Shown in pieces: positions 26,298-47,621 of a stretch of DNA of 64,000 bases; the stretch's first letter is position 1; every line of letters begins with the position of its first letter. This DNA comes from Streptomyces nigrescens. Its GTDB lineage: Bacteria > Actinomycetota > Actinomycetes > Streptomycetales > Streptomycetaceae. The notes under the pieces were generated by a model. It did no database searches and had not been told where the DNA came from. It was given only the letters and a program-made list of their open reading frames with translations. The stretch is from the NCBI GenBank assembly GCA_024349765.1, contig AP026073.1:7812001-7876000 (forward strand), given 5' to 3'. The position numbers and the translations under genes were made by a program.

Positions 26298-27803
26298 TCA
26301 GGACCCCAACCCCAGCTGAGCACGCAACGCGCGCGCGTCCGGCTTTCCGTTGGCGGTGAGGGGGAAGTGGTCGACGACATGGACCACGTTGGGCTGTTCG
26401 TACTCCGCGAGGTGCTCGGCCAGGCGCCGGCGCCAGGTGAGCGGAGCATCGCCCTCCGGGTCCGCGACGACGAAGTGCAGTGCGCTGCCGCGGCGTTGGT
26501 CTTCCACCGCCAGGACCTTGACCGGGCGGCCGCAGGCCTCGGCACGGCGCTCCAGGCTCTCGGGATAGAGCGTGAAGCCCAGCCGGTGCACGGCCTGATT
26601 GCGGCCCACCACCCGCACCGTGCCGTCGGCGTCGACGCTGCCGAGATCGGCCGTCGGGTACCAGGCGTCCTGGTCGACGGGACCAAGTGAGCCGTCCTCG
26701 CGGAGGTAGCCGGCCATCAGCCCGGGGGAGCGCACCTCGATGCCGCCGAGTTCGCCGGGCGCGGCAACGGTGCCGTCCGGGCGCACCACGCGCAGCCGCA
26801 CGCCGGGCAGGGGGCGCCCGCAGCCGTGCGGTGAGTCCGGCGTGGCCAGTGCGACGTTGCCGAGTTCCGTCAGGCCGTAGCCGTCCAGCAACGGGCGGCC
26901 CATTGTCGTGCGGAAGGACTCGGCCAGGGGGGCCGGCAGGGGCGCGCCGCCCACGCCCCAGACGCGGACGCCGGCGAGACCGGCGCGTACTTCCGGGCGG
27001 CGGCGGACGACGCCGAGCAGCGAGTGGTAGGTGGACGGTGCGGCGTCCACGGCGGTGGCGCCGTGCGCGGCGGCCTGGCCGACCGCCGCGTCGAGCCGCT
27101 GGTAGGGGGTGACCAGCAGGGTGCAACGGGCCAGCCACCACAGCAGGATGACGGAGAGCCCGTACTGGTGCGAGAAGGGCAGCAGCGGTGCGAGGACGTC
27201 GTCCGCGCGGTAGCCCATGGCCCGGATGGTGCGCAGCGAGTTGTCGAGGACGGCGTGGCCGGGTTTGACGATGCCCTTCGGGCGTCCCGTGGTGCCCGAG
27301 GACCACAGGACGAGCGCGTCGGACCGGCGGAACCAGGCGTCGAGGGGGTCGGCCCCGGCGGCCAAAGGCGCTGGTGAGGATGTGGATGCGGAGGAGGGAA
27401 CGGGGGTGAGGTGCGGGTAGTGGACGATGCGGTGGTCGGGGACACCGGGGAAGCCGGTGGTGGGGTCCGCGGCGGTGACGAGCCAGCGGACCCGGGCCTG
27501 GCGGGCGGCCGCGGCGGCGTCACCGGCGGAGAGCCGGTGGTCGAGCGGGACGAGTGAGGTGTCCAGCCGCATCAGGGCCAGCAGCGTCACGACGTAGTCG
27601 ATGCTGTTGTCGCCCTGGACCAGGACCCGGTCGCCGGCGCGGATGCCGAGCCCGTGCAGGGCCTGCGCGGTGGCCGCCAGCCGGCGGCCGAGCGCCGGTC
27701 CGTCGAGGGCGCCGGTGGCGTCGGGCGGGGTGCCGCCGCGCGGGGTCGCGGTGCCGTCGACGAGCCGGGCGGCGGCGACCGGAGGGGCGATGGTGTCGGT
27801 CAT
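26298..27803 (-). CDS. AMP-dependent acyl/fatty-acid ligase (ANL superfamily)
   Basis: 501 residues, ATG at 27801-27803 overlapping the stop of the upstream hot-dog gene (ATGA). The ATP-binding loop is LVLWSSGTTGRPKGIVKPG (about 164-182); LLDGYGLTELG and YPTADLGSVDADGTVRVVGR are the A5 and A7-A8 motifs, and the catalytic Lys is in TANGKPDARAL near the C-terminus. It activates a carboxylic acid as acyl-AMP and passes it to CoA or, more likely here, to the nearby stand-alone ACP. Third gene of a leftward unit FabI-MaoC-ligase, suggesting loading of a fatty acid or special starter acid. Substrate unknown. Confidence 0.85.
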   Translation of the reverse strand: MTDTIAPPVAAARLVDGTATPRGGTPPDATGALDGPALGRRLAATAQALHGLGIRAGDRVLVQGDNSIDYVVTLLALMRLDTSLVPLDHRLSAGDAAAAARQARVRWLVTAADPTTGFPGVPDHRIVHYPHLTPVPSSASTSSPAPLAAGADPLDAWFRRSDALVLWSSGTTGRPKGIVKPGHAVLDNSLRTIRAMGYRADDVLAPLLPFSHQYGLSVILLWWLARCTLLVTPYQRLDAAVGQAAAHGATAVDAAPSTYHSLLGVVRRRPEVRAGLAGVRVWGVGGAPLPAPLAESFRTTMGRPLLDGYGLTELGNVALATPDSPHGCGRPLPGVRLRVVRPDGTVAAPGELGGIEVRSPGLMAGYLREDGSLGPVDQDAWYPTADLGSVDADGTVRVVGRNQAVHRLGFTLYPESLERRAEACGRPVKVLAVEDQRRGSALHFVVADPEGDAPLTWRRRLAEHLAEYEQPNVVHVVDHFPLTANGKPDARALRAQLGLGS

Positions 27804-28300
27804 GGGTGCTCCGATCCCGTGGGGTCGAGGGGGCGGCACAGCAGGGTGGAGGTGGTGGTGGCCACCCACAGGCCGTCCGCGTCGTGGAAGGCGCAGTCGA
27901 GGGTGAGGAGCCGGCGGCCGGCGAGGTGCGCGACGTCGGCGAGGCGGACGGTCGCGTGGAGGACGTCGCCGGCGTGCGCGGGGCGGGCGTGCCGCAGGCT
28001 CTGGGCCCGGTGCACGGCACCGTCGAGGCCGGGCAGGTCCGGCCGGGCGCGCAGCAGTTGGTCCTCGGCGTGCGCCGCGAGGGTGACGAGGTAGGTGGGC
28101 GGGGCGAGAGTGTCGGGGTGGCCGAGAGCGCGGGCGGCGACCGGATCCGTGTAGGCGGGGTGCGGGTCACCGACCGCGGCGGCGAACCCGGCGATCCGCG
28201 CCCGGTCGAGGACGTACGGGCCGCAGCGGAGGACATCGGTGCCGGTGCCGGTACCGGGCGCCGGAGGGCCGGTGGGGCCGGGGGTCGCTCTGCCCGTCAT
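27800..28300 (-). CDS. MaoC-like hot-dog dehydratase (HadA/FAS1-DH-like)
   Basis: 166 residues. After a Pro/Gly-rich start, VLDRARIAGFAAAVGDPHPAYTDPVAARALGHPDTLAPPTYLVTL resembles the N-terminal MaoC-like domain found in HadA/HadC and in FAS dehydratase regions, with the typical D-P-H-P and APP-T-Y/F positions. Such proteins dehydrate 3-hydroxyacyl-ACP, often as heterodimers; no partner is visible, so activity alone is unproven. It begins 6 bp after the FabI-type gene and overlaps the ligase gene by ATGA, so all three are one operon. Confidence 0.7.
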   Translation of the reverse strand: MTGRATPGPTGPPAPGTGTGTDVLRCGPYVLDRARIAGFAAAVGDPHPAYTDPVAARALGHPDTLAPPTYLVTLAAHAEDQLLRARPDLPGLDGAVHRAQSLRHARPAHAGDVLHATVRLADVAHLAGRRLLTLDCAFHDADGLWVATTTSTLLCRPLDPTGSEHP

Positions 28301-28306
28301 CGTGCG

Positions 28307-29077
28307 TCAGTCGCCGATCATGTGGTGGCCGCCGTCCGCGTGGACGATCTCGCCGGTGGTGGCGGGCAGCCAGTCCGAGAGCAGGGCCAGGCAGGTACGG
28401 GCCACCGGTTCCGCGTCCTGCGGGTCCCAGCCCAGCGGGGCCCGCGCCGACCAGTCCTTCTCGAAGGACGGGCCGTCGCCGCCGATGCCCCGGGCGGCCA
28501 GGGTGCGCAGCGGGCCGGCCGCGACGAGGTTGGCGCGGATGCCGTGGCCGCCGAGGTCCCGTGCCAGATAGCGGGAACAGGCTTCGAGCCCCGCCTTGGC
28601 GACGCCCATCCAGTCGTAGCCGGGCCAGGCCCGCGAGGCGTCGAAGTCCACGCCGACGACGGAGGCGCCCGGTCGCAGGAGTGGCCGGCAGGCCATGGTG
28701 AGTGCCACCAGGGAGTACGTGGAGGTGTGCAGCGCGGCGGACACATCGCGCCACGGGGCGGTCAGGAAGCCGCCGTCCAGGCAGGTGGCGGGGGCGTGGG
28801 CGACCGAGTGCAGCACGCCGTCGAGCCCGTCCAGGTGGGCGCCGACCCGGTCGGCCAGCGTGCTGAGCTGCGCCTCGTCGGTGACGTCCAGCTCCACGAC
28901 GGGAGGTTCCTCCGGCAGCCGCCGGGCGAGCCGGGCCACCAGGCTCGGCCGCCCGTACGCGGTGAGGACGATCTTGGCGCCCTCTTCCTGGGCGAGCCGG
29001 GCCACCGCGTAGGCGATCGAGCTTTCGGTGATCACCCCGGTGATCACCAGCTGTTTTCCGTTGAGCAGACCGCTCAT
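28307..29077 (-). CDS. Enoyl-ACP reductase, FabI/InhA type
   Basis: 256 residues. The N-terminus GKQLVITGVITESSIAYAVARLAQEEGAKIVLT is the NAD-binding pattern of FabI/InhA (TGVxxxxSIA rather than the classical SDR GxxxGxG). Catalytic Tyr154 and Lys161 lie in YDWMGVAKAGLEACSRYLA, matching InhA's Y-x-W-M-x-V-A-K. ATTGEIVHADGGHHMIG ends the protein as usual. It reduces trans-2-enoyl-ACP in fatty-acid elongation. First gene of the leftward trio, divergent from the ACP gene across 343 bp that carries two palindromes. Confidence 0.92.
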   Translation of the reverse strand: MSGLLNGKQLVITGVITESSIAYAVARLAQEEGAKIVLTAYGRPSLVARLARRLPEEPPVVELDVTDEAQLSTLADRVGAHLDGLDGVLHSVAHAPATCLDGGFLTAPWRDVSAALHTSTYSLVALTMACRPLLRPGASVVGVDFDASRAWPGYDWMGVAKAGLEACSRYLARDLGGHGIRANLVAAGPLRTLAARGIGGDGPSFEKDWSARAPLGWDPQDAEPVARTCLALLSDWLPATTGEIVHADGGHHMIGD

Positions 29078-29420: not shown

Positions 29421-29675
29421 ATGACCGTTCCGACCCGAGAAGAGATCGTTGCCGAGCTCGCCGAGATCCTGCACGAGGTGGCCGGTGTCGTGCCGGCCGA
29501 GGTGACCGAAGAGAAGTCCCTGGTCGAGGAGTTGGACGTGGACTCCCTCGCCATGGCCGAGGTGATCGTGGTCGCCGAGGAGCGTTTCGGGATCGCACTG
29601 CCCGAAGAGGAGATGAAGGACATGCGTAGAGTTTTGGACATTGTGCTCCGGGTCGAGAAGCAGCTGGCGTCCTGA
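29421..29675 (+). CDS. Acyl carrier protein
   Basis: 84 residues. LDVDSLAMAEVIVVAEERFGIALPEEEM contains the phosphopantetheine attachment Ser42 in the D-S-L motif and the conserved acidic recognition helix. A four-helix ACP of type II FAS/PKS size. It carries the growing or loaded acyl chain for the FabI-, MaoC- and FabF-like enzymes nearby. It stands alone as a transcript: divergent promoter in front, strong hairpin terminator 45 bp behind. Confidence 0.93.
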   Translation: MTVPTREEIVAELAEILHEVAGVVPAEVTEEKSLVEELDVDSLAMAEVIVVAEERFGIALPEEEMKDMRRVLDIVLRVEKQLAS

Positions 29676-30111: not shown

Positions 30112-30861
30112 ATGCGGGGGGACGAGCCTTTCTGTGACGCGCACCCGAGCGGCCATTCGCTCAGTCATGCCGACCCCGGCGGCACGTCCAACACGCCTTG
30201 TGACGAGGGGTTTTGGCACCCGGATCGCGCCGACGAATTAGCCGACGGTGCATTACACATATTCTCGCCCGAAGGCGCAGACATTCGCCAGACCGCCTGT
30301 TTGACGGAATTCCTCGGCCGGTTACTCCAGTGTTCTCCGCGGGATATTCCGGTGACCCACGACGGGTTCGGCCGCCCGGTCTCCGCCGCACCCCCGCCCG
30401 CGGCCGGCTGGCCTCCGGGCGCGCGTCTCTGCCTCGGCATCGCCGCCGACCCCGGCCGCCAGTTCCTCGCCGTGACCAGGGACCTGCCGGTGGCACTCTC
30501 GGTCCACACCGTGCCGCGCGGTCCGGTCGGCGAACTGCTGCTGCCCTTCACCCCGTTGGAGCGCCGCTACGTCCAGGAGGCCCCGGAGGACCGGCGGGCC
30601 CACCGGCTGGCCCAGCTGTGGACCCGCAAGGAGGCGGCCCTGCGGCTGACCGGCCGGGGTGGGCTGGCCCTCGCCGACGAGATCGACGCGCTGAGCGAGG
30701 CGCGCGACGGCAAGGTCGTCATCCCGGCGTCCCCGGCCCACCCCGGCGGCATCGCCTACGTCCGCGATCTCCCCACCGGCCCCCGCACGGTCGCCTCCGC
30801 GGCCTTGGCCGCTCCGGCGTCGGGGCTCCGGGTGTGGCGCTTTGCGGTGCCCCGTACGTAG
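30112..30861 (+). CDS. 4'-Phosphopantetheinyl transferase homologue (Sfp type) with altered metal motif
   Basis: 249 residues. The C-terminal half carries the Sfp-family core LAQLWTRKEAALRLTGRGGLAL (Lys173, Glu174) and the earlier PLERRYV stretch. However, the first metal motif, normally G-V-D-V/I-E, reads A-L-S-V-H (about 128-132): Asp is Ser and Glu is His. The fold is kept but catalysis may be weak, use other ligands, or be lost. Placed between the ACP gene and a regulator, it is the obvious candidate to convert the apo-ACP. The first ~35 residues are atypical; ATG at 30112 follows GCGAGGGGAT. Confidence 0.75.
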   Translation: MRGDEPFCDAHPSGHSLSHADPGGTSNTPCDEGFWHPDRADELADGALHIFSPEGADIRQTACLTEFLGRLLQCSPRDIPVTHDGFGRPVSAAPPPAAGWPPGARLCLGIAADPGRQFLAVTRDLPVALSVHTVPRGPVGELLLPFTPLERRYVQEAPEDRRAHRLAQLWTRKEAALRLTGRGGLALADEIDALSEARDGKVVIPASPAHPGGIAYVRDLPTGPRTVASAALAAPASGLRVWRFAVPRT

Positions 30862-31348: not shown

Positions 31349-32623
31349 CTACGGCATGAGGACCGCGTGCGGGTCCCCGCCCTCCGTGCGGCGGGCGCCG
31401 GCCGTGAGTTCGCGCCAGGTTTCCAGGGCGAGGCGGAAGGCGCCGGCCTGTTCGTAGCCCTCGGCGGCCAGTTTGAAGTCGGCCTCGGCGGCGTCCTCGT
31501 GGCCGCCTGCGCGGTGCGCGCGGGCCAGGTGGAGCAGGCAGCGGGCGCGGTCGAGCGGGGAGAGGTCACCGGCCGTGAGGTCGATCCCCGCGGCGTGGTC
31601 GGCGGCCGCCGGCCCGTCGTCGCGGCGCAGTGCCGCGGCGGTCTCCAGGACCGCCAGCCAGGTCCGGGCCGAGGGGGTGCCGACCAGCGCGGTGGCCTGC
31701 CGGGCGCGGGTGAGCAGGGCGTCCGCCTCGTCCGCCGGGCCCGCCGCGAGCGCCAGCAGCGTACGGGCCCGGGCCAGCCGGAGGCGGAGCCGTACGCCGT
31801 CGGTCGTCGCGAGCAGGTCCTCGGCCTCGGCGAGGAGCTCCAGGGCCTCGTCCGGGTGGCCGGCCAGATACTGCGCACCGGCCACCGCCCACAGGGCGCC
31901 GGCCCGCAGTTCGCCGGCCGGGAGAGGGGCGGCCTCGGCGCGCAGCTCCGTGCCGAGCTGCTGGGCGCGGCTCCACTCGCCGCTGTCGACGGACGCGGAC
32001 AGCAGCGCCATCCGGGCCTGGGCCCGCTCCGGGCGGCCGGGCTCCAGCTCGGCGGTGACCCGTACGGCCTCCTCGGCGAAGCGGACGCCCTCGGGCAGGC
32101 GGCCCTCGGTGCGCAGCAGCTGGGCGAGTTCGATGGCGACGCGGGCGTGCAGTACCGGCGCGGTGCGGGTGAGCGGGTCGTCGAGCAGTCGGCGCAGCGC
32201 GGCCTCATGGCGGGCCGGATCGTCCAGCCGCCCGAGGACGGTGGCCAGCTCCCAGTGGGCCTCCCAGCGCACCTCGTCCTGGTCGGCGCCGCCGGCCTGC
32301 TCCACCACGGCCTCCAGCTGGCGCCGCGCCGCGGCCCAGTCGCCGGCCAGCTGGCTGGCGCGGGCCGCCACCAACTGGCCGACCAGGCCGAGGCGCTGGG
32401 TCAGCCGGGCGCCGGGCTCCTCGGTGGCGCTCAGTGCCTCGACGGTCGTGCCGAGCCGTTCGGCGATCGACCGGGCGATCTTGGCGCTCGGGATCCGGCG
32501 GCCGTTCTCGACCAGCGAGACGTAACTGGGCGAGAGATCGCCCCCGGCGAGGTCCCCCTGGGACAGGCCCTGCGCGCGGCGGACCTCCCGCACTCGCTTC
32601 CCGAAAGCAGGCTGCTCAATCAC
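31349..32623 (-). CDS. XRE-family regulator with TPR-like sensor (regulator 1)
   Basis: About 424 residues. The N-terminal HTH (about 7-62) includes VREVRRAQGLSQGDLAGGDL and SPSYVSLVENGRRIPSAKIA. The remainder (about 75-415) is a chain of helical repeats with Ala/Leu/Arg-rich pairs (for example ALELLAEAEDLLATTDGVRLRL), typical of tetratricopeptide sensor domains binding a peptide or small ligand. It is paralogous to the regulator at 38172 (S-x-SY-V/I-SLVE-x-G-x-RIPS). Start GTG at 32621-32623; no clear ribosome site. It diverges from the aldehyde dehydrogenase gene and is the likely local regulator. Confidence 0.85.
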   Translation of the reverse strand: MIEQPAFGKRVREVRRAQGLSQGDLAGGDLSPSYVSLVENGRRIPSAKIARSIAERLGTTVEALSATEEPGARLTQRLGLVGQLVAARASQLAGDWAAARRQLEAVVEQAGGADQDEVRWEAHWELATVLGRLDDPARHEAALRRLLDDPLTRTAPVLHARVAIELAQLLRTEGRLPEGVRFAEEAVRVTAELEPGRPERAQARMALLSASVDSGEWSRAQQLGTELRAEAAPLPAGELRAGALWAVAGAQYLAGHPDEALELLAEAEDLLATTDGVRLRLRLARARTLLALAAGPADEADALLTRARQATALVGTPSARTWLAVLETAAALRRDDGPAAADHAAGIDLTAGDLSPLDRARCLLHLARAHRAGGHEDAAEADFKLAAEGYEQAGAFRLALETWRELTAGARRTEGGDPHAVLMP

Positions 32624-33008
32624 CAAGGAATCGCTCGCAGTTGAGTTGGGCGGACGGACAGTGACGGTGTACGGACGGCGCCGGACGGCCGAACGTGATG
32701 ACGGGGAGTCTACTCACCGGACGCCCGCTCGGGGGCCTCTGTGGACGACCTTCGTTCCGGCGAGGAGTCATTTTTTGTCACTTACGGAGGTCGGTATTCC
32801 TCTTGCTCGCGCGACGGGCATCGCGACAGTTCGGAGGCGTGTTCGGGCCGGTAGGGCGGGGATCGGCAGGTCCGTGGCGGGGGTTGCGGACGGGACGCGG
32901 CGAGAGGTACTTGTCACAACGGCCGGTCGAGTGTAATGACTTTACTTGACAATAAATGACAATTGGCTGACGCTGACCCTCCATGGACTACGCCCCGAGG
33001 AGGGACAT
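32624..33008. other. Divergent promoter region, regulator 1 / aldehyde dehydrogenase
   Basis: 385 bp without a credible gene. The part 32905-32965 is AT-richer and holds a promoter and TGAC repeats, listed separately. Confidence 0.55.
32911..32960 (+). promoter_or_regulatory. Promoter with three TGAC repeats at 10-bp steps
   Basis: TTGTCA (32911-32916), 17 bases, TAATGA (32934-32939) form a plausible promoter, about 70 bases before the ATG at 33009. Over and just past the -10, TGAC recurs at 32937, 32947 and 32957, one helical turn apart, which suits side-by-side binding of a regulator on one face of the helix. Confidence 0.45.
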
Positions 33009-34250
33009 ATGAGCTCCGCTCCCGCATGGCCGACCGTGGCCGCCGAGCCGGAGGACCGTGTCGACGGCCGACGCGCGGCGGCCGTGCACCGGGTCCGGGA
33101 CTTTCTGGTGGACAACGCCGACACCGTGCACGCGCTGCTGTGCGAGATCTCCACCCACCGCGCCGCGCGCTACGAGATCGAGTCCACCGTCGCCACCCTC
33201 GACGGGGCCCTGGACGAGGTGGCCACCCACCGGCCCGGCCGCGTCCCCCGGCTGGCCGCCTTCATGCCGTCGAACGTCATCCTCTACTCCTACGCCCTCT
33301 ACCTCCTGGTCCCCGCCCTGTACACGGAGCGGCTGGTCTTCCGCCCCTCCAGCCGCGTCAAGGACCAGATGCGCCGGCTGCACGCGCTGCTCGCCGAGCA
33401 GCACCGCCTGCCCATCACCCTCACCACCGCCAGCCAGCGCGAGTTCCTCCAGGACCACGTCAGCCCGGCGGACGTCGTCGTCTTCACCGGCGCCTACGCC
33501 AACGCCGAGCAGATCCGCGCCCGGCTCACCCCCGGCCAGCTGTTCCTCTTCCTCGGCTCCGGCGTCAACCCGTTCGTGGTCGCCCCCGGCGCCGACGTCG
33601 AACGGGCCGCCCGCGACGCCCTCGCCATCCGCGTCCTCAACACCGGCCAGGACTGCCTGGGCCCGGACCTCTTCACCGTCCACGCCTCGCTGCTCGACCC
33701 GTTCGTGGACGCCCTGGTCAGCGAGTTGAAGGGGCTGCGCTACGGGCCGTACACCGACCCGGACGCCGACTTCGGGCCGATCTTCTACGAGAGCGCGCTG
33801 GAGGACGGCGCGCAGTTCCTCGCCCGCAACCGCGGCGGCATCGTGCACGGCGGGCACGTCGACTTCCGGGCCCGCCGCCTCGACCCCGCCGTCGTCGTCG
33901 GCGACGAGGTCACCCCGCGCACCCACGTGCCGGAGTTCTTCGCCCCGATCTTCAACGTCGCCTCCTACCGCGACGAGGAAGCGCTCGCCGCGACCCTCAC
34001 CACCGGCACCTTCACCGAACGCGCCCTGGGCTCCAGCGTCTACGGCCACGCCCCCGCCCTCGTCGAGGCGCTCCGCCGGCGCACCACCGTCACCCTGGAC
34101 ACCACCCTGCTGTCCATCGACGACGGCAACGCCCCCTTCGGCGGCTACGGCCGGATGGCCAACTACATATCCGACGGCCGGGAGTTGCGCGCCGAGCCCG
34201 TGCTGATCTCCAAGGCCGTCGCCGCCCACCGTCCGGGAGGCGGCCGATGA
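33009..34250 (+). CDS. Aldehyde dehydrogenase superfamily protein
   Basis: 413 residues from the ATG at 33009 (CCCGAGGAGGG upstream); shorter than the usual ~480. The Rossmann glycine turn FLGSGVNPFVV (about 181-191), catalytic Cys216 in NTGQDCLGPD, and the C-terminal LDTTLLSIDDGNAPFGGYG block place it in the ALDH fold. RHVPEFFAPIF-like TRTHVPEFFAPIFNV is also typical. It would oxidise an aldehyde to an acid, or act as an acyl reductase. Its stop overlaps the next gene by ATGA, so the aldehyde may be supplied or used by the ThDP enzyme. Confidence 0.8.
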   Translation: MSSAPAWPTVAAEPEDRVDGRRAAAVHRVRDFLVDNADTVHALLCEISTHRAARYEIESTVATLDGALDEVATHRPGRVPRLAAFMPSNVILYSYALYLLVPALYTERLVFRPSSRVKDQMRRLHALLAEQHRLPITLTTASQREFLQDHVSPADVVVFTGAYANAEQIRARLTPGQLFLFLGSGVNPFVVAPGADVERAARDALAIRVLNTGQDCLGPDLFTVHASLLDPFVDALVSELKGLRYGPYTDPDADFGPIFYESALEDGAQFLARNRGGIVHGGHVDFRARRLDPAVVVGDEVTPRTHVPEFFAPIFNVASYRDEEALAATLTTGTFTERALGSSVYGHAPALVEALRRRTTVTLDTTLLSIDDGNAPFGGYGRMANYISDGRELRAEPVLISKAVAAHRPGGGR

Positions 34251-37003: not shown

Positions 37004-37017
37004 GGCTGCTCCTCCGG

Positions 37018-37686: not shown

Positions 37687-38171
37687 GGAGGGTGCCTCCG
37701 CGGGGTCCGGCGGTGGTGGGGCGTGTGCGTGCTCATCGCACCACGTCGGACCGGGCGTGGACATCGGCGCGGGGTAGTACATCGAAAGGTTGACCCGCGG
37801 CCCCGGGCACACAGTTCGGCGTACGAGGCGGTCGCGGCGTAGGCGGTGGGCGGGGCGTAAGCGGCGGGCGTGGCCACGGGACGTGGCGGACGGGGTCCGC
37901 CGGGGGAGGGGCCGGCCGCGCGTGACGGTTCCGGGGGATTGACGGGGCGGCGGACTTCCCCGGCATTGGTGTACTCGGCGGCCGGTTTTCCGCTCCGGTA
38001 GTCACCCGGGAAATGATCTCGGTGACCACCGGTGAAGACCGGTGAAGGAATCCGAATATCGGTCGACTTCTTCTTGACTGCTTGGTAAAGTACCCAGCAC
38101 TCATTGTGACTCGGCGTTTTGATCCGACCGGCCGGAGTCATCCACTGTTCGAAATCCGGAGGGTTTGGCGA
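37687..38171. other. Divergent region upstream of regulator 2
   Basis: 485 bp between the DUF1707 gene and regulator 2. The left half is GC-rich and without a credible start site. The right half (38010-38110) is AT-richer, with a direct repeat ACCGGTGAAG (38027-38046 region) and a promoter listed separately. Confidence 0.5.
38063..38091 (+). promoter_or_regulatory. Candidate promoter of regulator 2
   Basis: TCGACT (38063-38068), 17-base spacer, TAAAGT (38086-38091), about 80 bases before the ATG at 38172. A TTGACT at 38074-38079 lies in the spacer. Confidence 0.4.
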
Positions 38172-40095: not shown

Positions 40096-40545
40096 CGGTT
40101 CCCTTGTCTCCTCGTCCCGGTGATGGTCCCGGTGATGGCGCCCCGGCCGGCCGGCGCGGGGCGGTGGTAGTCACCAGCGTCCCGTCGCGGCCCGGCCTCC
40201 GGATCGTCCGCAGGTAGGCACTTTCCGGCCCGCGGACTGTCACTTTCTATGTACGCCGGGCCCTACCAGGGGGCTGTGGGGCGTGCGCCCCCGGAGCTCG
40301 CCCACCGCGCCCGGGCCCCCTCCCCGCCTCCTCGAACCGTCGCCATAGTCAATTTTCCTGACTCTGTCAGTCATCGCCTTGAGAGCGTTTCCGCTGGTGC
40401 GAGGCCTGATGCCCCGGAGTGACAGGAAACCTCGACTGACCACTTCTCCCGCAACCTGTTGACAAGCCGATGACTCAGCTGTCATGTTTCTGGTCATGAG
40501 GACGCCCCGAGCGTGACAACGGGGCAGGAAATCAGGAGGCGTTTC
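40096..40545. other. Leader region of the FabF-GNAT-LanKC operon
   Basis: 450 bp without a gene. The right half is AT-richer and carries the candidate operator (40346-40373), a TTGACA at 40459-40464 with CATGTT 18 bases on as a possible promoter, and an imperfect palindrome ATGACTCAGCTGTCAT (40470-40485) overlapping it. Confidence 0.55.
40346..40373. promoter_or_regulatory. Candidate operator TAGTCAA + TGACT-N5-AGTCA
   Basis: TAGTCAA at 40346-40352 (preceded by CA), then TGACT-CTGTC-AGTCA at 40359-40373. Both elements match the site in the FabI/ACP divergent promoter (29190-29216), where the half-site lies on the other side of the palindrome. The match in a second, distant promoter of the same putative pathway is the main evidence for function. 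Confidence 0.55.
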
Positions 40546-41811
40546 ATGGAGTTACGCACGGATCGGCGGCGCGTCGTCGTCACCGGCTGCGGCGTGGTGT
40601 CCCCCGTGGGAAACACCACCGAAGACTTCTGGACCGCCCTCCTCGCCGGCCGCAGCGGCGTCACCGCGCTCACCCGCTTCGACACCTCCGGCCTCCCGGT
40701 CCGCATCGGCGGCGACCTCACCGGTTTCGACCCGGCCGGCTCCGGCTTCCTCACCCCGCAGGAGGTCCGGCGCACCGACCTCTTCACGCAGTACGCGGTG
40801 GTCGCCGCCGGCCAGGCGATGCGGGCCGCCGGCCTCGAACCCAGGGCCGACGTCGACCCCTACCGCTTCGCCGCGGTGATCGGCTCCGGCTACGGCGCCG
40901 CGCACGCCATCCAGCAGCAGTACGACGTGCTCAAGAACCAGGGCGCGCGGCGGGTCTCCCCGTACCACTCGGTGCTCACCGCCATCGACCACCCGGCCGG
41001 CCTGCTGTCCATCAAGTACGGCATCAGCGGCCCGAGTTGCGCGGTCTCCGCGGCCTGCGCGACCGGCGCGGTGGCCCTCGGCGAGGCGGCCGAACTGATC
41101 CGCCACGGCCGGGCCGACGTGGTCCTGGCCGGCGGCACGGACGACTCCCTCACCGCCGCCGATCTGGCCGGCACCGCCAACGCCCGGGCGCTCTCCCGCC
41201 GCAACGACGACCCCGAAGGCGCCAGCCGGCCCTTCGACCGGGACCGCGACGGCTTCGTGATGGCCGTCGGCGCCACCGTCCTGACCCTGGAGGAGGCCGG
41301 CCACGCGGAACGCCGCGGCGCGACGATCCTCGCCGAGGTCGCCGGTTACGCCGCCACCACCGACGCCCACCACGCCACCGCCCCCGACCCGACCGGTGCC
41401 GGCGCGGTCCGCGCGATGCGCGGGGCGCTCGCCGACGCGGGTCTGACCCCCGGTGACGTCGGGCAGGTCAGCGCCCACGGCACCGGCACCGTCCTCAACG
41501 ACCGCATCGAGGCGGCCGCGCTGCGCGAGGTGCTCGGCCCCGACCAGCTGCGCCGCACACCGGTCACCGCGGTCAAGAGCATGACCGGGCACATGCTCGG
41601 CGCGTCCGGGGCCGCCGAGGCCGCCGCCGCGGTGCTCTCGCTGCGGGACCGCAGGATCCCGCCGATCCGCAACTGCGACCACCCCGAGGACGACGACCTC
41701 GACCTGGTCGTGAAGGGTGCCCGCGACTGGGACGGCGACGCGGTGCTGAGCAATTCGTTCGGCTTCGGCGGCCACAACGCCGTCCTCGTCCTGACGCGCT
41801 ACCGCACATGA
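40546..41811 (+). CDS. 3-Oxoacyl-ACP synthase, FabF/KAS II type
   Basis: 421 residues from the ATG at 40546 (AGGAGG six bases upstream). The catalytic triad is intact: Cys171 in SAACATGAVALGEAAELI, His311 in VSAHGTGTVLNDRIE and His348 in KSMTGHMLGASGAAEAA. It condenses malonyl-ACP with an acyl chain. First gene of the operon with the GNAT and LanKC genes, so it probably builds or extends the acyl chain to be put on the peptide. There is no chain-length-factor partner, so a FAS-type rather than aromatic PKS role is likely. Confidence 0.93.
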   Translation: MELRTDRRRVVVTGCGVVSPVGNTTEDFWTALLAGRSGVTALTRFDTSGLPVRIGGDLTGFDPAGSGFLTPQEVRRTDLFTQYAVVAAGQAMRAAGLEPRADVDPYRFAAVIGSGYGAAHAIQQQYDVLKNQGARRVSPYHSVLTAIDHPAGLLSIKYGISGPSCAVSAACATGAVALGEAAELIRHGRADVVLAGGTDDSLTAADLAGTANARALSRRNDDPEGASRPFDRDRDGFVMAVGATVLTLEEAGHAERRGATILAEVAGYAATTDAHHATAPDPTGAGAVRAMRGALADAGLTPGDVGQVSAHGTGTVLNDRIEAAALREVLGPDQLRRTPVTAVKSMTGHMLGASGAAEAAAAVLSLRDRRIPPIRNCDHPEDDDLDLVVKGARDWDGDAVLSNSFGFGGHNAVLVLTRYRT

Positions 41812-41874: not shown

Positions 41875-42576
41875 ATGCAGGGACGACTGGTGACCTTGGA
41901 ATGGCCCGGCGACGACGACTGGGCCGCGATCGCCTCCTGGCTGCGCCCCGGCTCGCCCGCGGCCGTGCTCAGCGGTGACTGGGAGCTGCTGGGCGCCGCC
42001 GAGGTCGAGCAGGCCAACCGCTCCGGCCGGGTCCACCACCTGGTGATCCGCACCAAGGACGGCACCCGCATCGGCACCGTCAGCTACCAGCGGTCGGGCC
42101 GGATCGGCGGCTACACCGTCGGCGGCGCGATCGGCTCGCCCGAACTGTGGCGCCGCGGCTACGGCGCGGAGGCCGTCGTCCTCCTCGTCGACTACCTCTT
42201 CCACCAGCTCGACGCCCACCGGGTGCAGGTCACCACCGCCGGCTACAACAAGGGCATCATCCGGCTGATGACCAAGACCCCGTTCGTGGTCGAGGGCATC
42301 CTGCGGGACCACTGTTACCTCGACGGCGAGTACCACGACGCGATCGTGTGGGGCCTGCTGCGCGACGAGCACTACGCCTCGCTCAAGCCCAGCGAGGACA
42401 ACCGCGTACTGGCCGTCGGGCTGGAGGACTTCGTGTCCGAGGACGACAAGGTGCAGGCCAGGGCGGTGCTCACCGAGCACCTCGCCACGGCCGACCGGAC
42501 CGCGCTCACGCCCTACCTGGAACCGGACGTCACCGCCCCCGGAAAGATCGTCCCGGCCGAGCGAGGTGCCGCATGA
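41875..42576 (+). CDS. GNAT-family N-acyltransferase, candidate peptide-acylating enzyme
   Basis: 233 residues, GAGGAGGGAC upstream. The GNAT core (about 45-165) contains IGTVSYQRSGRIGGYTVGGAIG, the acyl-CoA/pantetheine-binding ELWRRGYGAEAVVLLVDYLF and AHRVQVTTAGYNKGIIRLM. A C-terminal extension of about 60 residues goes beyond common RimJ/RimL-like members. In goadvionin (a lipolanthine) a GNAT enzyme joins an ACP-bound polyketide to the peptide N-terminus; the position here between the ketosynthase and LanKC (ATGA overlap with LanKC) suggests the same job. Direct proof is lacking. Confidence 0.8.
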   Translation: MQGRLVTLEWPGDDDWAAIASWLRPGSPAAVLSGDWELLGAAEVEQANRSGRVHHLVIRTKDGTRIGTVSYQRSGRIGGYTVGGAIGSPELWRRGYGAEAVVLLVDYLFHQLDAHRVQVTTAGYNKGIIRLMTKTPFVVEGILRDHCYLDGEYHDAIVWGLLRDEHYASLKPSEDNRVLAVGLEDFVSEDDKVQARAVLTEHLATADRTALTPYLEPDVTAPGKIVPAERGAA

Positions 42577-45254
42577 GAGACGGCGCCGAGAGCTTTGCCC
42601 TGGCCGACCGCACCTTCTTCGACTGGCCCGGCAACTGGGACCTGGAGGCCACCCGCTTCCCCGCCCCGCCGCTGCCCGACGGCTGGAGCCGCGAGGACAA
42701 CGAGGCCTGGACCATCTGCCGCCCGCCCGAGGACCGGCTCCCCGACCAGGGCTGGAAGATCCACGTCAGCGCGTCCCCCGACGACGCCCCCCGCACCCTC
42801 GCCGACGTCGCCGACTACTGCGCCCGGTACGGCATCGCCTTCAAGTACCTCAAGAGCGCCAACGTCCAGCGCGCCCTGAGCCGCAAGTACGCCCAGCGCT
42901 CCTCCGCCGGCAAGCTGCTGACCGTCTACCCCGCGGACGAGGCCGAACTGGCCCGCACCCTCGAAGGACTGGACGCGATCGTCGGCGGCCGCCCCGGCCC
43001 GTACGTCCTGACCGACCTGCGCTTCCGTCAGGGCCCGCTCTACGTCCGCTACGGCGGATTCCGCACCCACTACATGGAGGACGCCGACGGCGAGCTGGTC
43101 CCGGCCTTCCGGCGCCCCGACGGGACGCCCGAACCGGACCGCCGCACCCCGGTCTTCCACACCCCCGACTGGGTCACCGTCCCCGACATCCTCAAGGACT
43201 CGCTGGCCGCCCGGCAGGCCGTGGACGACTTCCCGTACCGGATCACCGGCGCGCTGCACTTCTCGCACGGCGGCGGCGTCTACCGCGCCGAACCGGCCGG
43301 TGAACAGGCCCTCGGCGCCGGACAGCACAGCGTCGTCCTCAAGGAGGGCCGGCCGTACTCCGGCACCGACGGCGTCGGCCGGGACGCGGTCGCCCGGCTC
43401 GCCCACGAGCACCGGATCCTGACCAAGCTGGCCGGACTGCCCGGGATCCCCCGCACCTTCGGCACCTTCCAGGCCGGCGAACACCTCTTCCTGGTCCTGG
43501 AGGACATCGAGGGGCAGGACTTCCAGTCCTGGCTCGCCGGGCTCTACCCGCTGACCGTCCCCGAACCCGACGAGGCGGCGGTGGCCGCCCACCGGGACCG
43601 CGCCCTCGCCCTGTTCGGCCGGATCGAGGAACTGATCGCCTCGGTGCACGACCGCGGGGTGCGCATCGGCGACCTGCACCCGGGCAACTTCATCATCCAG
43701 CCCGGCGACGTCCCCGTCCTCCTGGACTTCGAGGTGGCCGACGCGATCGACCTGGCCACCCCCAGCAGCCTCGGCGCCCCCGGCTTCCACCGGGCCGACG
43801 CCACCGGCGCGGACGGCGACCACTACGCACTGGCCGCGATCGCCCTGTGGTTGTTCCTGCCGCTCGCCGCGCTCGGCGGCCTGGCCCCCGACAAGGCGTC
43901 GGCCCTGCTCGACACCGCGACCCGCCGGTTCGGCCTCCCCGGCCACCTGGTGTCCCGGCTCGCCCCCCAGCTCGCCCCGAACGACAACACCACGTCGCCG
44001 CTGCGCAGCGTGCCGGAGGCGTTCCCACCCTCCGACATCCTGGCCTCGATCGACCGCGGCCTGCGCGACAGCGCCACCCCGCACCGCACCGACCGGCTCC
44101 ACCCCGGCGACTTCGCGCAGTTCGCCGAGGGCGGCGCGGGCTTCGGACACGGCGCCGCCGGCGTCCTGTGGGCCCGCCACACCGCCCTAGGGGAACGCGA
44201 CGAGGAGGGCGCGGCCTGGCTGCGCGCCGCCGTCGACCGGGTCACCGCCGAACGCATCGGCTTCTACGACGGCCTGCACGGAATCGCCTACGTCCTTGCG
44301 GAGTTGGGCGACCGCGAAGGAGCCCTGCGGGCCCTCGACCGGGCCGCCGACCGGCTCCCGGTACGCCACTGCCCCAGCCTCTACCGCGGCCTGTCCGGCG
44401 TCGGCCTGAACCTCCTGCACTTCGCCGACGCACTGGACGACGGCGCCCTGCGGCAGCAGGCCCTCGACCTGGCCGACCGCGTCACCGCGCGGCTCGCCGC
44501 GGCCCGCACCGAACCCGTCGAGCGCACCCGCCGGCGCGGCTCCACCCACGCCGGCGGCCTGATGTACGGCTGGTCGGGCCCCGCGCTCTTCCTGCTCCGC
44601 GCCCACCGCGCGACCGGCGACCCCGCCCTGCTCGACGAGGCGGTCCGCGCCGTCCACCGCGACCTCGACCGCTGCAGCCCCGGGCCGCAGGACACCCTCC
44701 AGGTCGACGAGGGGTTCCGGCTGCTGCCCTACCTCGACAACGGCAGCGCGGGCATCGCCCTCGTGGCGGCCGAACTCCTCCGCCACCGCGACGACGCCCG
44801 CCTCCGCGAGGCGCTGCCGGGCCTGCTCCGGGCCTGCTCCTCCGACTTCGTCATCGAGTCGGGCCTGTGGGGCGGCCGCGCCGGTCTCATCGGCACCCTC
44901 GCCACCCTGCGCGCGCAGGCCCCCTGGCCACCGGAGACCGCCGAGCGGTATCTGCGCCGCCATCTGACCAACCTCCACCAGCACGCCATGACGCTGAACG
45001 GCGCAACGGTCTTCCCCTGTGACGGCCGGGCCCGGATCTCCATGGACGTGGCCACCGGCGGGGCCGGCGTATTGCTGGCACTCTCCGCCGCCGAACGGGG
45101 CACCCCGCTGCTGCCGTTCCTCCCTGACCCGCGGTCCGCCGCGGCCGGTCAACCGGCCGTCCCGGAGCGCGCCCGTGGTGCCCACGGCACCGCGACCCCC
45201 ACCGTCCCGACCGGGCCGGCGGGCACTGCGGACAACGGAAGGGAGGTGTCGTAA
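42573..45254 (+). CDS. lanKC: Class III lanthipeptide synthetase (lyase-kinase-cyclase)
   Basis: 893 residues. Lyase domain about 40-215 (FKYLKSANVQRALSRKYAQR, SAGKLLTVYP). Kinase domain about 240-430: Lys257 in SVVLKEGRP, catalytic Asp367 and Asn372 in IGDLHPGNFII, Asp385 in LLDFEVADAI. Cyclase-like domain about 515-865 (HCPSLYRGLSGVGLNLLHFA, LDNGSAGIALVAAELL, SGLWGGRAGLIG). The Cys-Cys-His zinc ligands of class I, II and IV cyclases are absent, so this is class III. It phosphorylates and eliminates Ser/Thr in the precursors and forms thioether/labionin-type rings. The stop codon directly touches the ATG of the first precursor. Confidence 0.95.
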   Translation: MRDGAESFALADRTFFDWPGNWDLEATRFPAPPLPDGWSREDNEAWTICRPPEDRLPDQGWKIHVSASPDDAPRTLADVADYCARYGIAFKYLKSANVQRALSRKYAQRSSAGKLLTVYPADEAELARTLEGLDAIVGGRPGPYVLTDLRFRQGPLYVRYGGFRTHYMEDADGELVPAFRRPDGTPEPDRRTPVFHTPDWVTVPDILKDSLAARQAVDDFPYRITGALHFSHGGGVYRAEPAGEQALGAGQHSVVLKEGRPYSGTDGVGRDAVARLAHEHRILTKLAGLPGIPRTFGTFQAGEHLFLVLEDIEGQDFQSWLAGLYPLTVPEPDEAAVAAHRDRALALFGRIEELIASVHDRGVRIGDLHPGNFIIQPGDVPVLLDFEVADAIDLATPSSLGAPGFHRADATGADGDHYALAAIALWLFLPLAALGGLAPDKASALLDTATRRFGLPGHLVSRLAPQLAPNDNTTSPLRSVPEAFPPSDILASIDRGLRDSATPHRTDRLHPGDFAQFAEGGAGFGHGAAGVLWARHTALGERDEEGAAWLRAAVDRVTAERIGFYDGLHGIAYVLAELGDREGALRALDRAADRLPVRHCPSLYRGLSGVGLNLLHFADALDDGALRQQALDLADRVTARLAAARTEPVERTRRRGSTHAGGLMYGWSGPALFLLRAHRATGDPALLDEAVRAVHRDLDRCSPGPQDTLQVDEGFRLLPYLDNGSAGIALVAAELLRHRDDARLREALPGLLRACSSDFVIESGLWGGRAGLIGTLATLRAQAPWPPETAERYLRRHLTNLHQHAMTLNGATVFPCDGRARISMDVATGGAGVLLALSAAERGTPLLPFLPDPRSAAAGQPAVPERARGAHGTATPTVPTGPAGTADNGREVS

Positions 45255-45341
45255 ATGACCATCATGGATCTTCAGGGTCTGGAGGTGCCGGGCGAGCGTG
45301 ACGCCCAGGCGCTCGGCTCCACCGTCAGCACCGGCTGCTGA
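45255..45341 (+). CDS. lanA1: Class III lanthipeptide precursor 1
   Basis: 28 residues. Begins MTIMDLQGLE, which holds the D-L-Q-x-L-E leader motif of class III precursors (compare LabA, RamS), continues VPGERDAQALG and ends STVSTGC at the stop. Core is probably the last seven or eight residues with S22-x-x-S25-x-x-C28, a ring-forming pattern one residue shorter than the labionin S-x-x-S-x-x-x-C. The terminal Cys is as in lipolanthines. GGGAGG lies just ahead, inside the LanKC coda. Too short for usual gene finders. Confidence 0.92.
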   Translation: MTIMDLQGLEVPGERDAQALGSTVSTGC

Positions 45342-45347
45342 ATGACG

Positions 45348-45410
45348 CCGACGGGCCGTGCACCGTCATTGCACGGCCCGTCGGGTCCAGGTGTCCCGCA
45401 ACGGCACCTG
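45348..45410 (+). terminator. Attenuator-like hairpins after precursor 1
   Basis: A 14-bp perfect stem (45348-45361 with 45371-45384, 9-base loop) begins 7 bp after the lanA1 stop, followed by a second smaller one (CAGGTG 45388-45393 with CACCTG 45405-45410). No T-tract. Such stems could shield the 3' end of a short precursor message or lower expression of what follows. Confidence 0.55.
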
Positions 45411-45464
45411 ACACGTCATCGGCGCTGTCCACCGCTCCTGCTCACCCCCCGGAGGGAGGTTCAC

Positions 45465-45551
45465 ATGTCGGTCATGGATCTTCAGGGTCTGGAGGTGCCG
45501 GGCGAGCGTGACGCTCAGGCGCTCGGCTCCACCCTCAGCGGCGGCTGCTGA
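45465..45551 (+). CDS. lanA2: Class III lanthipeptide precursor 2 (variant core)
   Basis: 28 residues, MSVMDLQGLE start, the same middle VPGERDAQALG, ending STLSGGC. It differs from precursors 1 and 3 at Val24 to Leu and Thr26 to Gly, and at positions 2-3. The S-x-x-S-x-x-C pattern and the terminal Cys are kept, so the same synthetase should act, giving a second congener. Own ribosome site GGAGGGAGG six bases upstream. A small hairpin (GACACCGA/TCGGTGTC, 45550-45567) overlaps the stop. Confidence 0.92.
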   Translation: MSVMDLQGLEVPGERDAQALGSTLSGGC

Positions 45552-45619
45552 CACCGAGTTCGGTGTCGTCCTACGCACTCTACGCATCCGCAACGGACAA
45601 CGGAAGGGAGGTGTCGTAA

Positions 45620-45706
45620 ATGAGCATCATGGATCTTCAGGGTCTGGAGGTGCCGGGCGAGCGTGACGCCCAGGCGCTCGGCTCCACCGTCAGCACCGGC
45701 TGCTGA
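45620..45706 (+). CDS. lanA3: Class III lanthipeptide precursor 3
   Basis: 28 residues, identical to precursor 1 except Thr2 to Ser. The 113 bases 45594-45706 match 45229-45341 at all but one position, including the ribosome site and the copied end of the LanKC gene (GTGTCGTAA before ATG), so it is a recent segmental duplicate. Doubling the same core suggests dosage rather than diversity. Followed by a T-tailed terminator. Confidence 0.92.
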   Translation: MSIMDLQGLEVPGERDAQALGSTVSTGC

Positions 45707-45712: not shown

Positions 45713-45757
45713 ACCCGGTGGTCCCGTGCTCCCGGCGCGGGGCCACCGGGTTCCCTT
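45713..45757 (+). terminator. Intrinsic-type terminator after the precursor genes
   Basis: ACCCGGTGGTCCC (45713-45725) pairs with GGGGCCACCGGGT (45739-45751) with one G-T wobble, followed by TCCCTTTTT. This is a textbook factor-independent terminator, unusual in such GC-rich DNA. It lies between lanA3 and the FAD protein gene, so the latter may be expressed by read-through at a lower level. Confidence 0.75.
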
Positions 45758-45794
45758 TTTCCGCGTAGCCCAACTCCTCGGGGGGAGAGCCGAG

Positions 45795-47621
45795 TTGAAC
45801 GACCGTACCGAGCCGGCGGCCCGCTCCCTCTGCATCATCGGCTGCGGCCCCCGCGGCACCTCCCTCGTCGAGCGGATCCTCGCCAACGTCCCCGCCCTGT
45901 ACGGCGACCGGCCCCTGGACCTGCACCTCGTCGACCCGTACCCGCCGGGCGCCGGCCGCACCTGGCGCACCGACCAGCCCGGCCTGCTGTGGATGAACTC
46001 CGCCGCCGAGCAGGTCACCCTCTACCCCGACCCGAGCGTCTCCTGCGCCGGGCCGCCGCGCCCCGGCCCCACCACCGCCGAGTGGCTGACCGGCCCGCTG
46101 CACGACGGTGCCTACGCCGCGCGCCGCGACCAGGGCCGCTACCTGCGCCACTTCTTCGAGACGGTGACCGCCGGGCGCCCCTCCTCGGTCCGCCTGTACG
46201 TCCACCGGGCGCGCGCGATCGACCTGCGCCGGACGTCCGTGGACGGCGCGGCACCGGCCACCCGCCAACAGGTGGTCCTCGACTCCGCCGAACCGCCCTT
46301 CCTCGCCGACCGGGTGGTGCTGGCGCAAGGGCACCCGGACGTGCGTACCGAGCCCGCACCGGCCGGCCTGACCCGCATCGGGCCGGGCCCCGCCGACCCC
46401 GCCGCCCTGGACGCCGTCCCGCCCGGCGCGCCGGTCGTCGTCCGCGGCCTCGGCCTGGTCTTCATCGACTGCCTCGCCCTGCTGACGGAAGGCCGCGGCG
46501 GCCGCTTCGACCGCACCCCGGACGGCCGGCTCCGCTACCTGCCCTCCGGTCGCGAGCCCCGCCTGTACGCGGGCTCCCGCCGCGGTGTCCCCCTCCCGCC
46601 CAAGCCGGCCCGCGCCGCCGTACCGTCCCGGCCCGCCGCCCCGCGCTTCGCCACCGCCGACGCCTGCCGGGCCCGGTTGTCCCGCCCCGGCGCCACCTTC
46701 GGCCGCGACGTCTGGCCGCTGGTCCTGGCCGAGTTGGGCTGGTGCCACTACCGCGCGCTCTTCGCCGAACAGCCCGCCCGCGCCCGTATGACGTGGGACG
46801 ACTTCGACGCCCAGTACGCGCTCCTGCTCACCGACGCGGACCGCCTCGCCAAGCTCGCCCGGGAGGCCGTTCCGGACCCCGCCGACCGCCTCGACCTCGA
46901 CCGCCTGTCCGCCCCGCTCGCCGGCCGCCGCTTCGCCGACGCCGACGGCCTCCAGCGCTGGCTGCGCGCGCACCTCGCCGAGGTCCACCACCGCCGCACC
47001 GGCCCGGCCCGGGCTGTCACCACCGCGCTGGTGGACGGCCTCCAGCGCACCGGCGCGGTCATCGAGGACCTGTGGCGCTCCGGCGACCTGGCCGGTGACC
47101 AGCTGGCGGACGCGCTCGCCCGCTTCTCCCTCGGCACGTACCTGAGTTCCGGCCCCCCGCCCCTGCGCGCCGAGCAACTGCTCGCCCTGGCCGAGGCCGG
47201 AGTGGTGGTGTTCGTGGGCCCCGAGATGCGCGTGGAGATCACGACGCCGGCCACGGACGGCACCGGCCCGGTCTTCCGCGCCACCAGCCCCGCGGTGCCC
47301 GGCGTCGCCCACGACGCCGCCGTCCTCCTCGACGCCCGGTTGTCGGCCCCCGCCCCCGACCGCTTCGCGGACCCGCTGCTCCGTGCCCTCCTCTCCCGCG
47401 GTGAACTCACCGAGGCCCACACGGAGGACGGCACCCCGACCGGCGAACTCCGGCTGTCCGGCCCCGACCTGCACCCGGTCGACGCCCACGGCACCACCCA
47501 CCACGACCGCGTCATCGCCGGCCCGGCCCAGTTCCCCCGCCCGGGGACGGACGCGATCTTCTTCCGGCAGAACGATGGGGTTGCGCGGAGCTTGCTGGCG
47601 CGGCTTGATCCCCCCACGTAG
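45795..47621 (+). CDS. FAD/NAD(P)-binding protein of the lanthipeptide operon
   Basis: 608 residues from a TTG start behind GGGGGGAGAG five bases upstream; the frame has no better start. SLCIIGCGPRGTSLVERILAN is a dinucleotide-binding motif of the NAD_binding_9-like family; WRTDQPGLLWMNSAAEQVTLYPD and VRGLGLVFIDCLALLTEGRGG follow. The C-terminal half is long and poorly characterised. Such proteins may be oxidoreductases (amine or hydroxylamine oxidation in some siderophore pathways). Its position after the precursors makes a tailoring step likely; it is not an HFCD-type cysteine decarboxylase. Confidence 0.75.
   Translation: MNDRTEPAARSLCIIGCGPRGTSLVERILANVPALYGDRPLDLHLVDPYPPGAGRTWRTDQPGLLWMNSAAEQVTLYPDPSVSCAGPPRPGPTTAEWLTGPLHDGAYAARRDQGRYLRHFFETVTAGRPSSVRLYVHRARAIDLRRTSVDGAAPATRQQVVLDSAEPPFLADRVVLAQGHPDVRTEPAPAGLTRIGPGPADPAALDAVPPGAPVVVRGLGLVFIDCLALLTEGRGGRFDRTPDGRLRYLPSGREPRLYAGSRRGVPLPPKPARAAVPSRPAAPRFATADACRARLSRPGATFGRDVWPLVLAELGWCHYRALFAEQPARARMTWDDFDAQYALLLTDADRLAKLAREAVPDPADRLDLDRLSAPLAGRRFADADGLQRWLRAHLAEVHHRRTGPARAVTTALVDGLQRTGAVIEDLWRSGDLAGDQLADALARFSLGTYLSSGPPPLRAEQLLALAEAGVVVFVGPEMRVEITTPATDGTGPVFRATSPAVPGVAHDAAVLLDARLSAPAPDRFADPLLRALLSRGELTEAHTEDGTPTGELRLSGPDLHPVDAHGTTHHDRVIAGPAQFPRPGTDAIFFRQNDGVARSLLARLDPPT

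Follow-up and report, generated by a model that had tools for sequence, protein, structure and literature searches.

A widespread lipolanthine-like gene cluster family with a predicted dissociated tail pathway, as seen from a locus of Streptomyces nigrescens

We analysed a 64-kb stretch of the 9.33-Mb genome of Streptomyces nigrescens (C1:7812001-7876000; hereafter the window) and describe a gene cluster at window positions 26298-47621 that represents a widespread lipolanthine-like family in which the tail pathway is predicted to be dissociated. The cluster joins a class III lanthionine synthetase (LanKC), its precursor peptides and a GNAT acyltransferase to single-domain fatty-acid enzymes, and its predicted product, which we hold to be rather probable on the strength of the gene content, is an N-acylated labionin-type octapeptide. 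The least expected part is a cassette of an AMP-forming acyl ligase (AAL), an aldehyde-dehydrogenase-fold enzyme (ALDH) and a thiamine diphosphate (ThDP)-dependent enzyme. No published description of this gene combination was found in the literature searched, the scope of which excluded most subscription papers. The nearest related locus in a named genome is that of Streptomyces endophytica HNM0140 (L066), whose GNAT and LanKC are both 98% identical to those of the window.

The peptide part of the cluster is a plus-strand operon in the order FabF, GNAT, LanKC, three precursors and a PF13454 flavoprotein. Its first gene (40513..41811) encodes a FabF-type ketosynthase with the active-site Cys (NF005589, 472.6 bits, cut-off 387). 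The GNAT gene (41875..42576; PF13302, 3e-12) overlaps the LanKC gene (42573..45254) by 4 bp (ATGA), which places a putative acyltransferase next to LanKC, as in lipolanthine clusters. LanKC matches the NCBIfam model lanthi_synth_III (NF038151) with 929.8 bits against a cut-off of 575 and contains RamC_N and LANC_like domains; the lyase, kinase and cyclase domains of a class III enzyme are present, and the lyase- and kinase-domain motifs are conserved across 53 aligned LanKC rows, in which some genomes appear twice. The three precursors (45255-45706) are 28 aa each, with an LQ-type leader and a Ser/Cys core: GSTVSTGC in the first (45255..45341) and third (45620..45706) and GSTLSGGC in the second (45465..45551). 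Their DNA is 91-99% identical, a GGGAGG-type stretch lies ahead of each, and in a six-frame translation of the window they are the only frames ending in SxxSxxC, so that all three carry the lipolanthine-type S-x-x-S-x-x-C core with a Cys end. The original prediction, made from the DNA of the window, had placed LanKC, the overlapping GNAT, the FabF of the same operon and three Cys-ended precursors at about these positions, and all were confirmed.

Relatives of the cluster were collected by GNAT searches. Among 392 genomes of the genus (window genome included), 15 gave E values of 1e-30 or better, and eight of these, including the window, form a close group that we call clade A; 20 kb were fetched on each side of these 15 loci, some stretches stopping at contig ends. 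A scan of named genomes used the GNAT family alignment A2, built from 13 of the 15 GNATs (L011 and L021 omitted), and yielded 79 loci. Our analysis covers the 42 clear ones (L059-L100); the other 37 (L101-L137), with E values of 3e-13 or weaker, were left out. Named loci were fetched with 10-kb flanks, and the fatty-acid block of clade A lies beyond 10 kb. As the genome (G) and locus (L) sets overlap (G194=L059, G265=L062, G191=L064, G042=L074, G048=L076, G361=L089, G309=L092, G506=L083), their counts are not additive. Within the fetched flanks, 39 of the 42 named loci hold a LanKC gene and likewise 39 a matching precursor. The core search accepted Thr as well as Ser, allowed spacings of 2-4 and demanded a DLQ/ELQ leader motif; all 36 distinct cores from related loci read xSxxSxxC. 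The loci range over Streptomyces, Saccharopolyspora, Amycolatopsis, Kutzneria, Prauserella, Crossiella, Frankia and Nakamurella.

The second block of the cluster contains the candidate tail-building enzymes. On its minus strand lie genes for the AAL (26298..27869; PF00501, 3.3e-55; 77-84% identity in six other clade A loci), the start of which is probably somewhat inside the open reading frame because that frame overlaps the next gene, for a HadA/MaoC-like hot-dog protein of the dehydratase subunit type (27800..28300; PF13452, 8.9e-19; below the cut-off of the NCBIfam HadA-type model) and for a FabI-type enoyl-ACP reductase (28307..29077; NF005908, 393.4 bits, cut-off 299). HadA works with a HadB partner, and a partner subunit is likely here because the aligned HadA-like rows share a D/T-x-x-P-x-Y/H pattern with no constant Asp/His pair. 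The genome encodes another FabI at C1:1888008, 57% identical to the cluster enzyme; the cluster FabI being a second copy, an interpretation of this block as the primary fatty-acid synthase (FAS) is ruled out, for FabI only. On the plus strand follow an acyl carrier protein (ACP; 29421..29675; DVDSLAM; NF002147, 91.7 bits, cut-off 84), the DSL serine of which is present in 24/24 aligned rows, and a divergent homologue of the phosphopantetheinyl transferase (PPTase) superfamily (30112..30861). The original prediction had named these five proteins, and ACP, FabI, the MaoC-like protein and the acyl-AMP ligase were borne out; the PPTase homologue is present but weak, scoring 26.8 bits against a cut-off of 25 for PF01648 and 22.2 against 45.35 for the NCBIfam model, and the G-x-D metal motif typical of PPTases was not seen in any of the seven clade A copies. 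Three enzymes had been overlooked in that inventory, namely the N-oxygenase-like flavoprotein and the ALDH (32946..34250, +; PF00171; its start could be inside) and ThDP enzyme (34247..35971, +; PF02776, PF00205, PF02775; CRDQRNA, not HE(x)GA), the latter two forming one operon (32946-35971) between both blocks amid regulators and membrane proteins. The claim that no modular polyketide synthase (PKS) is present held among the window reading frames scanned with Pfam, a scan that omitted 398-6358 and about 9-15 kb.

Both blocks recur together outside the window. All six readable other clade A loci hold AAL-MaoC-FabI-ACP-PPT in the same relative place, together with ALDH, FabF, GNAT, LanKC and flavoprotein; in the seventh, G194, the contig ends before the FAS block. 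In a second group, clade B, the loci G042, G036 and G048 keep ALDH, ThDP enzyme, ACP, FabF, LanKC, FabI, AAL and GNAT in another order in which FabI stands close after the precursor, with identities of 76-81% for ALDH, 72-75% for the ThDP enzyme, 87-88% for FabI, 67-71% for ACP, 70-75% for the ligase, 52-53% for FabF and 46-48% each for GNAT and LanKC. Co-occurrence of the FAS block with the LanKC operon in related genomes, on which the original prediction had staked its case, is therefore seen in six of six readable clade A loci and, rearranged, in clade B, and chromosomal synteny as its sole cause is rejected because other clades retain these genes but arrange them differently. It is highly improbable that two unrelated neighbouring clusters, one for a lanthipeptide and one for a fatty-acid derivative, are involved: the blocks are indeed separated by about 10 kb that includes regulators, but in G048 the precursor is followed by FabI after about 80 bp and then, within about 2.5 kb, by AAL, and in the Pseudonocardiaceae, Frankia and Nakamurella loci ligase-ALDH, LanKC, ThDP enzyme and FabF lie within about 15 kb. 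The profile matches and these related loci together support the earlier proposal of a class III peptide with a GNAT and dissociated fatty-acid enzymes.

Like the lipolanthines microvionin, nocavionin, goadvionin and nocaviogua, the cluster has a class III LanKC, a GNAT and machinery for an N-terminal fatty acyl group, and like nocaviogua it has an octapeptide plan S-x-x-S-x-x-C with a C-terminal Cys. Unlike the lipolanthines, it has no clustered cysteine decarboxylase (HFCD, the counterpart of MicD) and no modular PKS was found, and it adds the AAL/ALDH/ThDP unit and an N-oxygenase-like flavoprotein. As no HFCD gene (PF02441) occurs in the window, which departs from the clustered HFCD of lipolanthines, we call the cluster lipolanthine-like rather than a lipolanthine cluster. 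Lipoavitides (Ren et al. 2024) are reported to be ribosomally synthesized and post-translationally modified peptides (RiPPs) with non-modular fatty-acid synthases, said to start with a β-ketoacyl synthase III (KAS III) and to carry a short hydroxy-dimethylpentanoyl cap. The present cluster would resemble them in that dissociated fatty-acid enzymes feed an acyltransferase capping the lanthipeptide N-terminus; unlike the lipoavitides so described, it has FabF, FabI, AAL, ALDH and the ThDP enzyme, and no KAS III domain was found among its Pfam-scanned proteins. The lipoavitide acyltransferase is LpvE, and MicKC works together with the decarboxylase MicD (both PMC12076493). GNAT-type lipidation, predicted for the window cluster, is described in the selidamides and nostolysamides (PMC13060382), which are acylated on Lys or Orn side chains, whereas the window cores have no Lys or Arg. 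The nocaviogua paper (PMC10435860) gives the compound as Ala-Avi-Val-Ser-Avi-Asp/Asn-Gly-Avi, with an avionin and an N-terminal methylguanidino fatty acid, a structure from which the precursor plan may be read as A-S-V-S-S-(N/D)-G-C; it also counts 12 lipolanthines in three groups in 2023 and reports that microvionin and goadvionins inhibit Gram-positive bacteria, whereas nocaviogua A and B had no antibacterial effect. The fatty acids of microvionin and nocavionin bear bis-methylated guanidino groups (PMC10373908).

We propose the following pathway. LanKC would phosphorylate and eliminate both serines of xSxxSxxC and close a labionin-type bicycle onto the C-terminal Cys, as suggested by the intact enzyme and the constant core, and the leader would be removed by an unclustered peptidase. 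The GNAT would then acylate the freed N-terminus with a fatty chain, a role to which its homology, the operon overlap and the constant neighbourhood point. This chain would be built on the cluster ACP by FabF, FabI and the HadA-like subunit, with FabD, FabG and probably HadB borrowed from primary metabolism. At its starter end the cassette may act, with ligase and ALDH interconverting acid and aldehyde and the ThDP enzyme making or breaking a bond next to the carbonyl. Because no HFCD is clustered, the Cys most likely keeps its carboxylate, giving a labionin rather than an avionin, and the PF13454 flavoprotein may, as a guess from its family, add an N- or S-oxygenation.

The original prediction had noted no visible HFCD, and indeed no PF02441 match lies in the window; the nearest among the matches listed for the genome is about 204 kb beyond the window end. 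A PF02441 search of the 15 genomes placed an HFCD about 2 kb from the GNAT in G094 and 8 kb from it in G385, and tblastn with these two proteins as queries found homologues in 4 of the 42 named loci (L087, L090, L091 and, at 38%, L093), none of them in clade A. In five of these six HFCD loci the fetched stretch contains no match to the ThDP enzyme or the ALDH, with L093 as the exception, and large proteins matching ketosynthases stand beside the HFCD genes of L087 (1859 aa) and L093 (1713 aa), with one of 1875 aa in G385. In the LanKC tree the nine clade A rows form a clade (100/100), and the six HFCD rows lie on one side of a modestly supported branch (88/98). Several observations nevertheless weigh against our interpretation. 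The window genome has six PF02441 matches in all, making decarboxylation in trans possible, and one of them, at C1:769372 (L054, C1:765001-785000), lies about 5 kb from a small peptide-like gene; this looks like a separate RiPP locus, which could supply an HFCD in trans. In the close relative G194/L059 a divergent protein with a PF02441 match (26.5 bits) is encoded about 2 kb past the flavoprotein gene, and L093 combines its HFCD with a ThDP enzyme (36%) and an ALDH, although the precursor search gave no match in this locus. In the tree, the side with the HFCD rows also contains the outgroup LanKC, and long branches are flagged for the outgroup, L085, L093, G094, L080 and L083. As to the tail, synteny within clade A could by itself reflect shared ancestry of a chromosomal stretch, and a ThDP search of 394 genomes of the class (three candidates scored per genome) gave at least 6. 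Five loci, L095-L099 (S. flavofungini, S. typhae, S. aureocirculatus, S. alboflavus and S. lasiicapitis), have LanKC, GNAT and precursors with GSTGSV(G/N/D)C cores and, in the fetched stretches, only weak ACP or ligase matches, FabF only in L096, and no HFCD, ALDH, ThDP or FabI match.

The PF02441 matches elsewhere in the genome and near the G194 cluster, together with the core plan shared with nocaviogua, speak for a true lipolanthine, in which an HFCD encoded elsewhere decarboxylates the Cys and the product carries an avionin. We regard this as unlikely. Apart from those in G094, G385 and G194, none of the PF02441 matches listed for the 15 genomes, including the other clade A loci, falls within the fetched 20 kb on each side, and the same core is kept in G361 (100% complete) and in the genome of L078, for each of which two PF02441 matches are listed. 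Because these look UbiX-like and CoaBC-like by length and score, an HFCD acting in trans is unlikely in those genomes. A separate alternative, which concerns the tail, is that the ThDP enzyme and ALDH make the starter from a 2-oxo acid, possibly an arginine-derived 4-guanidinobutyryl, and that clade B removes urea with an agmatinase-family enzyme; we consider it doubtful. A ThDP decarboxylase would seldom carry Gln at the catalytic-Glu position, the match of the ThDP enzyme to the guanidino-oxopentanoate decarboxylase model (225.6 bits, cut-off 500) is unspecific, as are its profile matches generally, and clade A has no agmatinase homologue. In favour stands clade B, where G048/L042 encodes an agmatinase (13842-14867, +; 191.7 against a TIGR01230 cut-off of 174.3) and homologues occur in 9 of 63 rows (L067, L070, L072, L074, L075, L076, G042, G036 and G048), that is, in seven genomes (G042=L074, G048=L076) and thus in 7 of 10 clade B genomes; this suggests a guanidino group somewhere in the clade B product. 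On this alternative the tail would match those of microvionin and nocaviogua in being a guanidino fatty acid, and known lipolanthines do carry such acids (PMC10373908, PMC10435860).

In the cassette, the ALDH keeps its catalytic Cys (GQDC) in 22/22 aligned rows and lacks the general-base Glu in all 22, a loss also known from ALDH-fold enzymes acting between acyl thioesters and aldehydes. Ligase and ALDH share one frame, by Pfam, in G361 (914 aa) and G738 (899 aa) and, by length and BLAST, in L079, L081, L083 and L085 (888-928 aa). The ThDP enzyme lies within the fetched flanks of 23 of the 42 named loci, and 35 of 36 aligned rows, among which several genomes are counted twice, have Gln at the position of the catalytic Glu (34 with CRDQR and L093 with GDQRIA); the sole exception is a generic G309 enzyme with HEQGA. 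The Glu of HE-x-G-A activates ThDP, and this canonical residue of ThDP decarboxylases and carboligases is thus replaced while the ThDP-binding GDG..N motif is kept. The best solved relative is BbmA (170.7 bits), presumably a C-N ligase, which has HEEGA; 2-hydroxyacyl-CoA lyases score nearly as high (159.4 bits). Given these near-equal scores and the HEEGA of BbmA, hydroxamate formation by the ThDP enzyme was not adopted other than within the portable-module interpretation that follows. The same gene set also occurs in G023 and G738 and, at lower identity, in G638 (L144-L145), G218 (L146-L147) and G025 (L154-L155), where the 26-36 kb fetched contain no match to LanKC or GNAT. Its neighbours are two nonribosomal peptide synthetase (NRPS) proteins in G023 (L152-L153) and, in G738 (L148-L149), a ketosynthase-acyltransferase-aminotransferase protein and a flavin halogenase-like protein. 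We conclude from co-conservation and gene fusion that AAL, ALDH and the ThDP enzyme are, as far as genes can tell, one functional unit, and the occurrence of the set beside such NRPS or ketosynthase-acyltransferase-aminotransferase genes makes it look like a portable tail-making unit. More speculatively, it may be an unrecognised module with a ThDP chemistry of its own, based on Gln in place of the catalytic Glu, that RiPP, NRPS and PKS clusters use to build an uncommon acyl group such as an acyloin- or hydroxamate-type end derived from an aldehyde, here capping a non-decarboxylated labionin octapeptide. R2-like diiron proteins (Ribonuc_red_sm) were also seen near ligase/ALDH genes, for example in G048/L042 (7599-8564, -) and L081 (8447-9571, -); together with a VinK-type acyltransferase they occur in many clade B and Pseudonocardiaceae-type loci, with no match in clade A loci.

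The flavoprotein that ends the LanKC operon (45795..47621, +; PF13454, 7.5e-35) has an uncertain start, at 45726 (GTG) or 45795 (TTG), and full-length homology (E 1.5e-86) to the L-aspartate N-hydroxylase 8CP2. In that structure, as described in PMC10404684, Trp51 and Asn62 lie beside the flavin, and Arg13, Arg276, Arg416, Arg577 and Asn413 engage the aspartate. A HMMER alignment read by eye shows that the flavin-side Trp51 and Asn62 are shared and that Arg13, Arg577 and Arg593 are also kept, whereas Arg276, Asn413, Arg416, Arg409 and Arg412 are lost and Arg266 is Lys; three of the five aspartate contacts thus differ and two (Arg13, Arg577) remain, the alignment of the 409-416 helix being uncertain. 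These losses make aspartate an unlikely substrate. We found PF13454 proteins in 159 of 199 genomes from the genus; a paralogue in the window genome is 48% identical to the window protein; the copies in Pseudonocardiaceae-type loci and in G361, L088 and L089 reach 33-47%, some as partial matches, and no homologue was seen in clade B clusters. As the family is common in the genus, the paralogue is closer than the distant cluster copies and clade B clusters show no homologue, the flavoprotein was not adopted as a replacement for HFCD. A single-sequence AlphaFold model of it had a mean pLDDT of 37.5 and was not used.

Several further genes accompany the cluster. Between its two blocks, and conserved in clade A, are a helix-turn-helix (HTH) regulator with tetratricopeptide repeats (31349..32626, -; PF01381), an ABC-2 type membrane protein (36161..37048, -; PF01061), a DUF1707/LiaF-like protein (37018..37812, -) and another HTH regulator (38082..39476, +; PF01381). 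Behind the cluster in clade A lies a LuxR-type two-component pair (49773-51908), the candidate regulators, which consists of a response regulator (49773..50546, -; PF00072/PF00196), possibly controlling the cluster, and its possible partner, a histidine kinase conserved in clade A (50601..51908, -; PF07730); homologues of the response regulator lie near the family clusters of G361, G385, G094, L068 and L087. Upstream in the window are CbiD and CobN genes and a pair encoding an M48-type peptidase and a BlaI-type repressor (22589-24076), the latter matched upstream in 4 of 7 other clade A loci, a count for which some fetched stretches may end too early. On plasmids, a tblastn search with the GNAT returned 113 records, all with less than 80% query coverage and none with an identity above 60%, and a DNA search gave three matches, of which the two examined are other kinds of cluster. 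One plasmid locus, L007 (NZ_CP108358.1), is by annotation a daptide-type cluster with LanKC and a YcaO gene.

In summary, the family would add a taxonomically broad lipolanthine-like branch in which the tail would come from single-domain enzymes, whose exchange should be simpler than that of a modular PKS. It would also reveal whether cysteine decarboxylation is dispensable for a class III lipopeptide. In addition, the cassette poses a question of enzymology, since a ThDP enzyme with Gln at the catalytic-Glu position is paired with an acyl reductase-like ALDH. Two features chiefly make the family interesting: the ThDP/ALDH/ligase cassette and the question of whether the Cys remains undecarboxylated.

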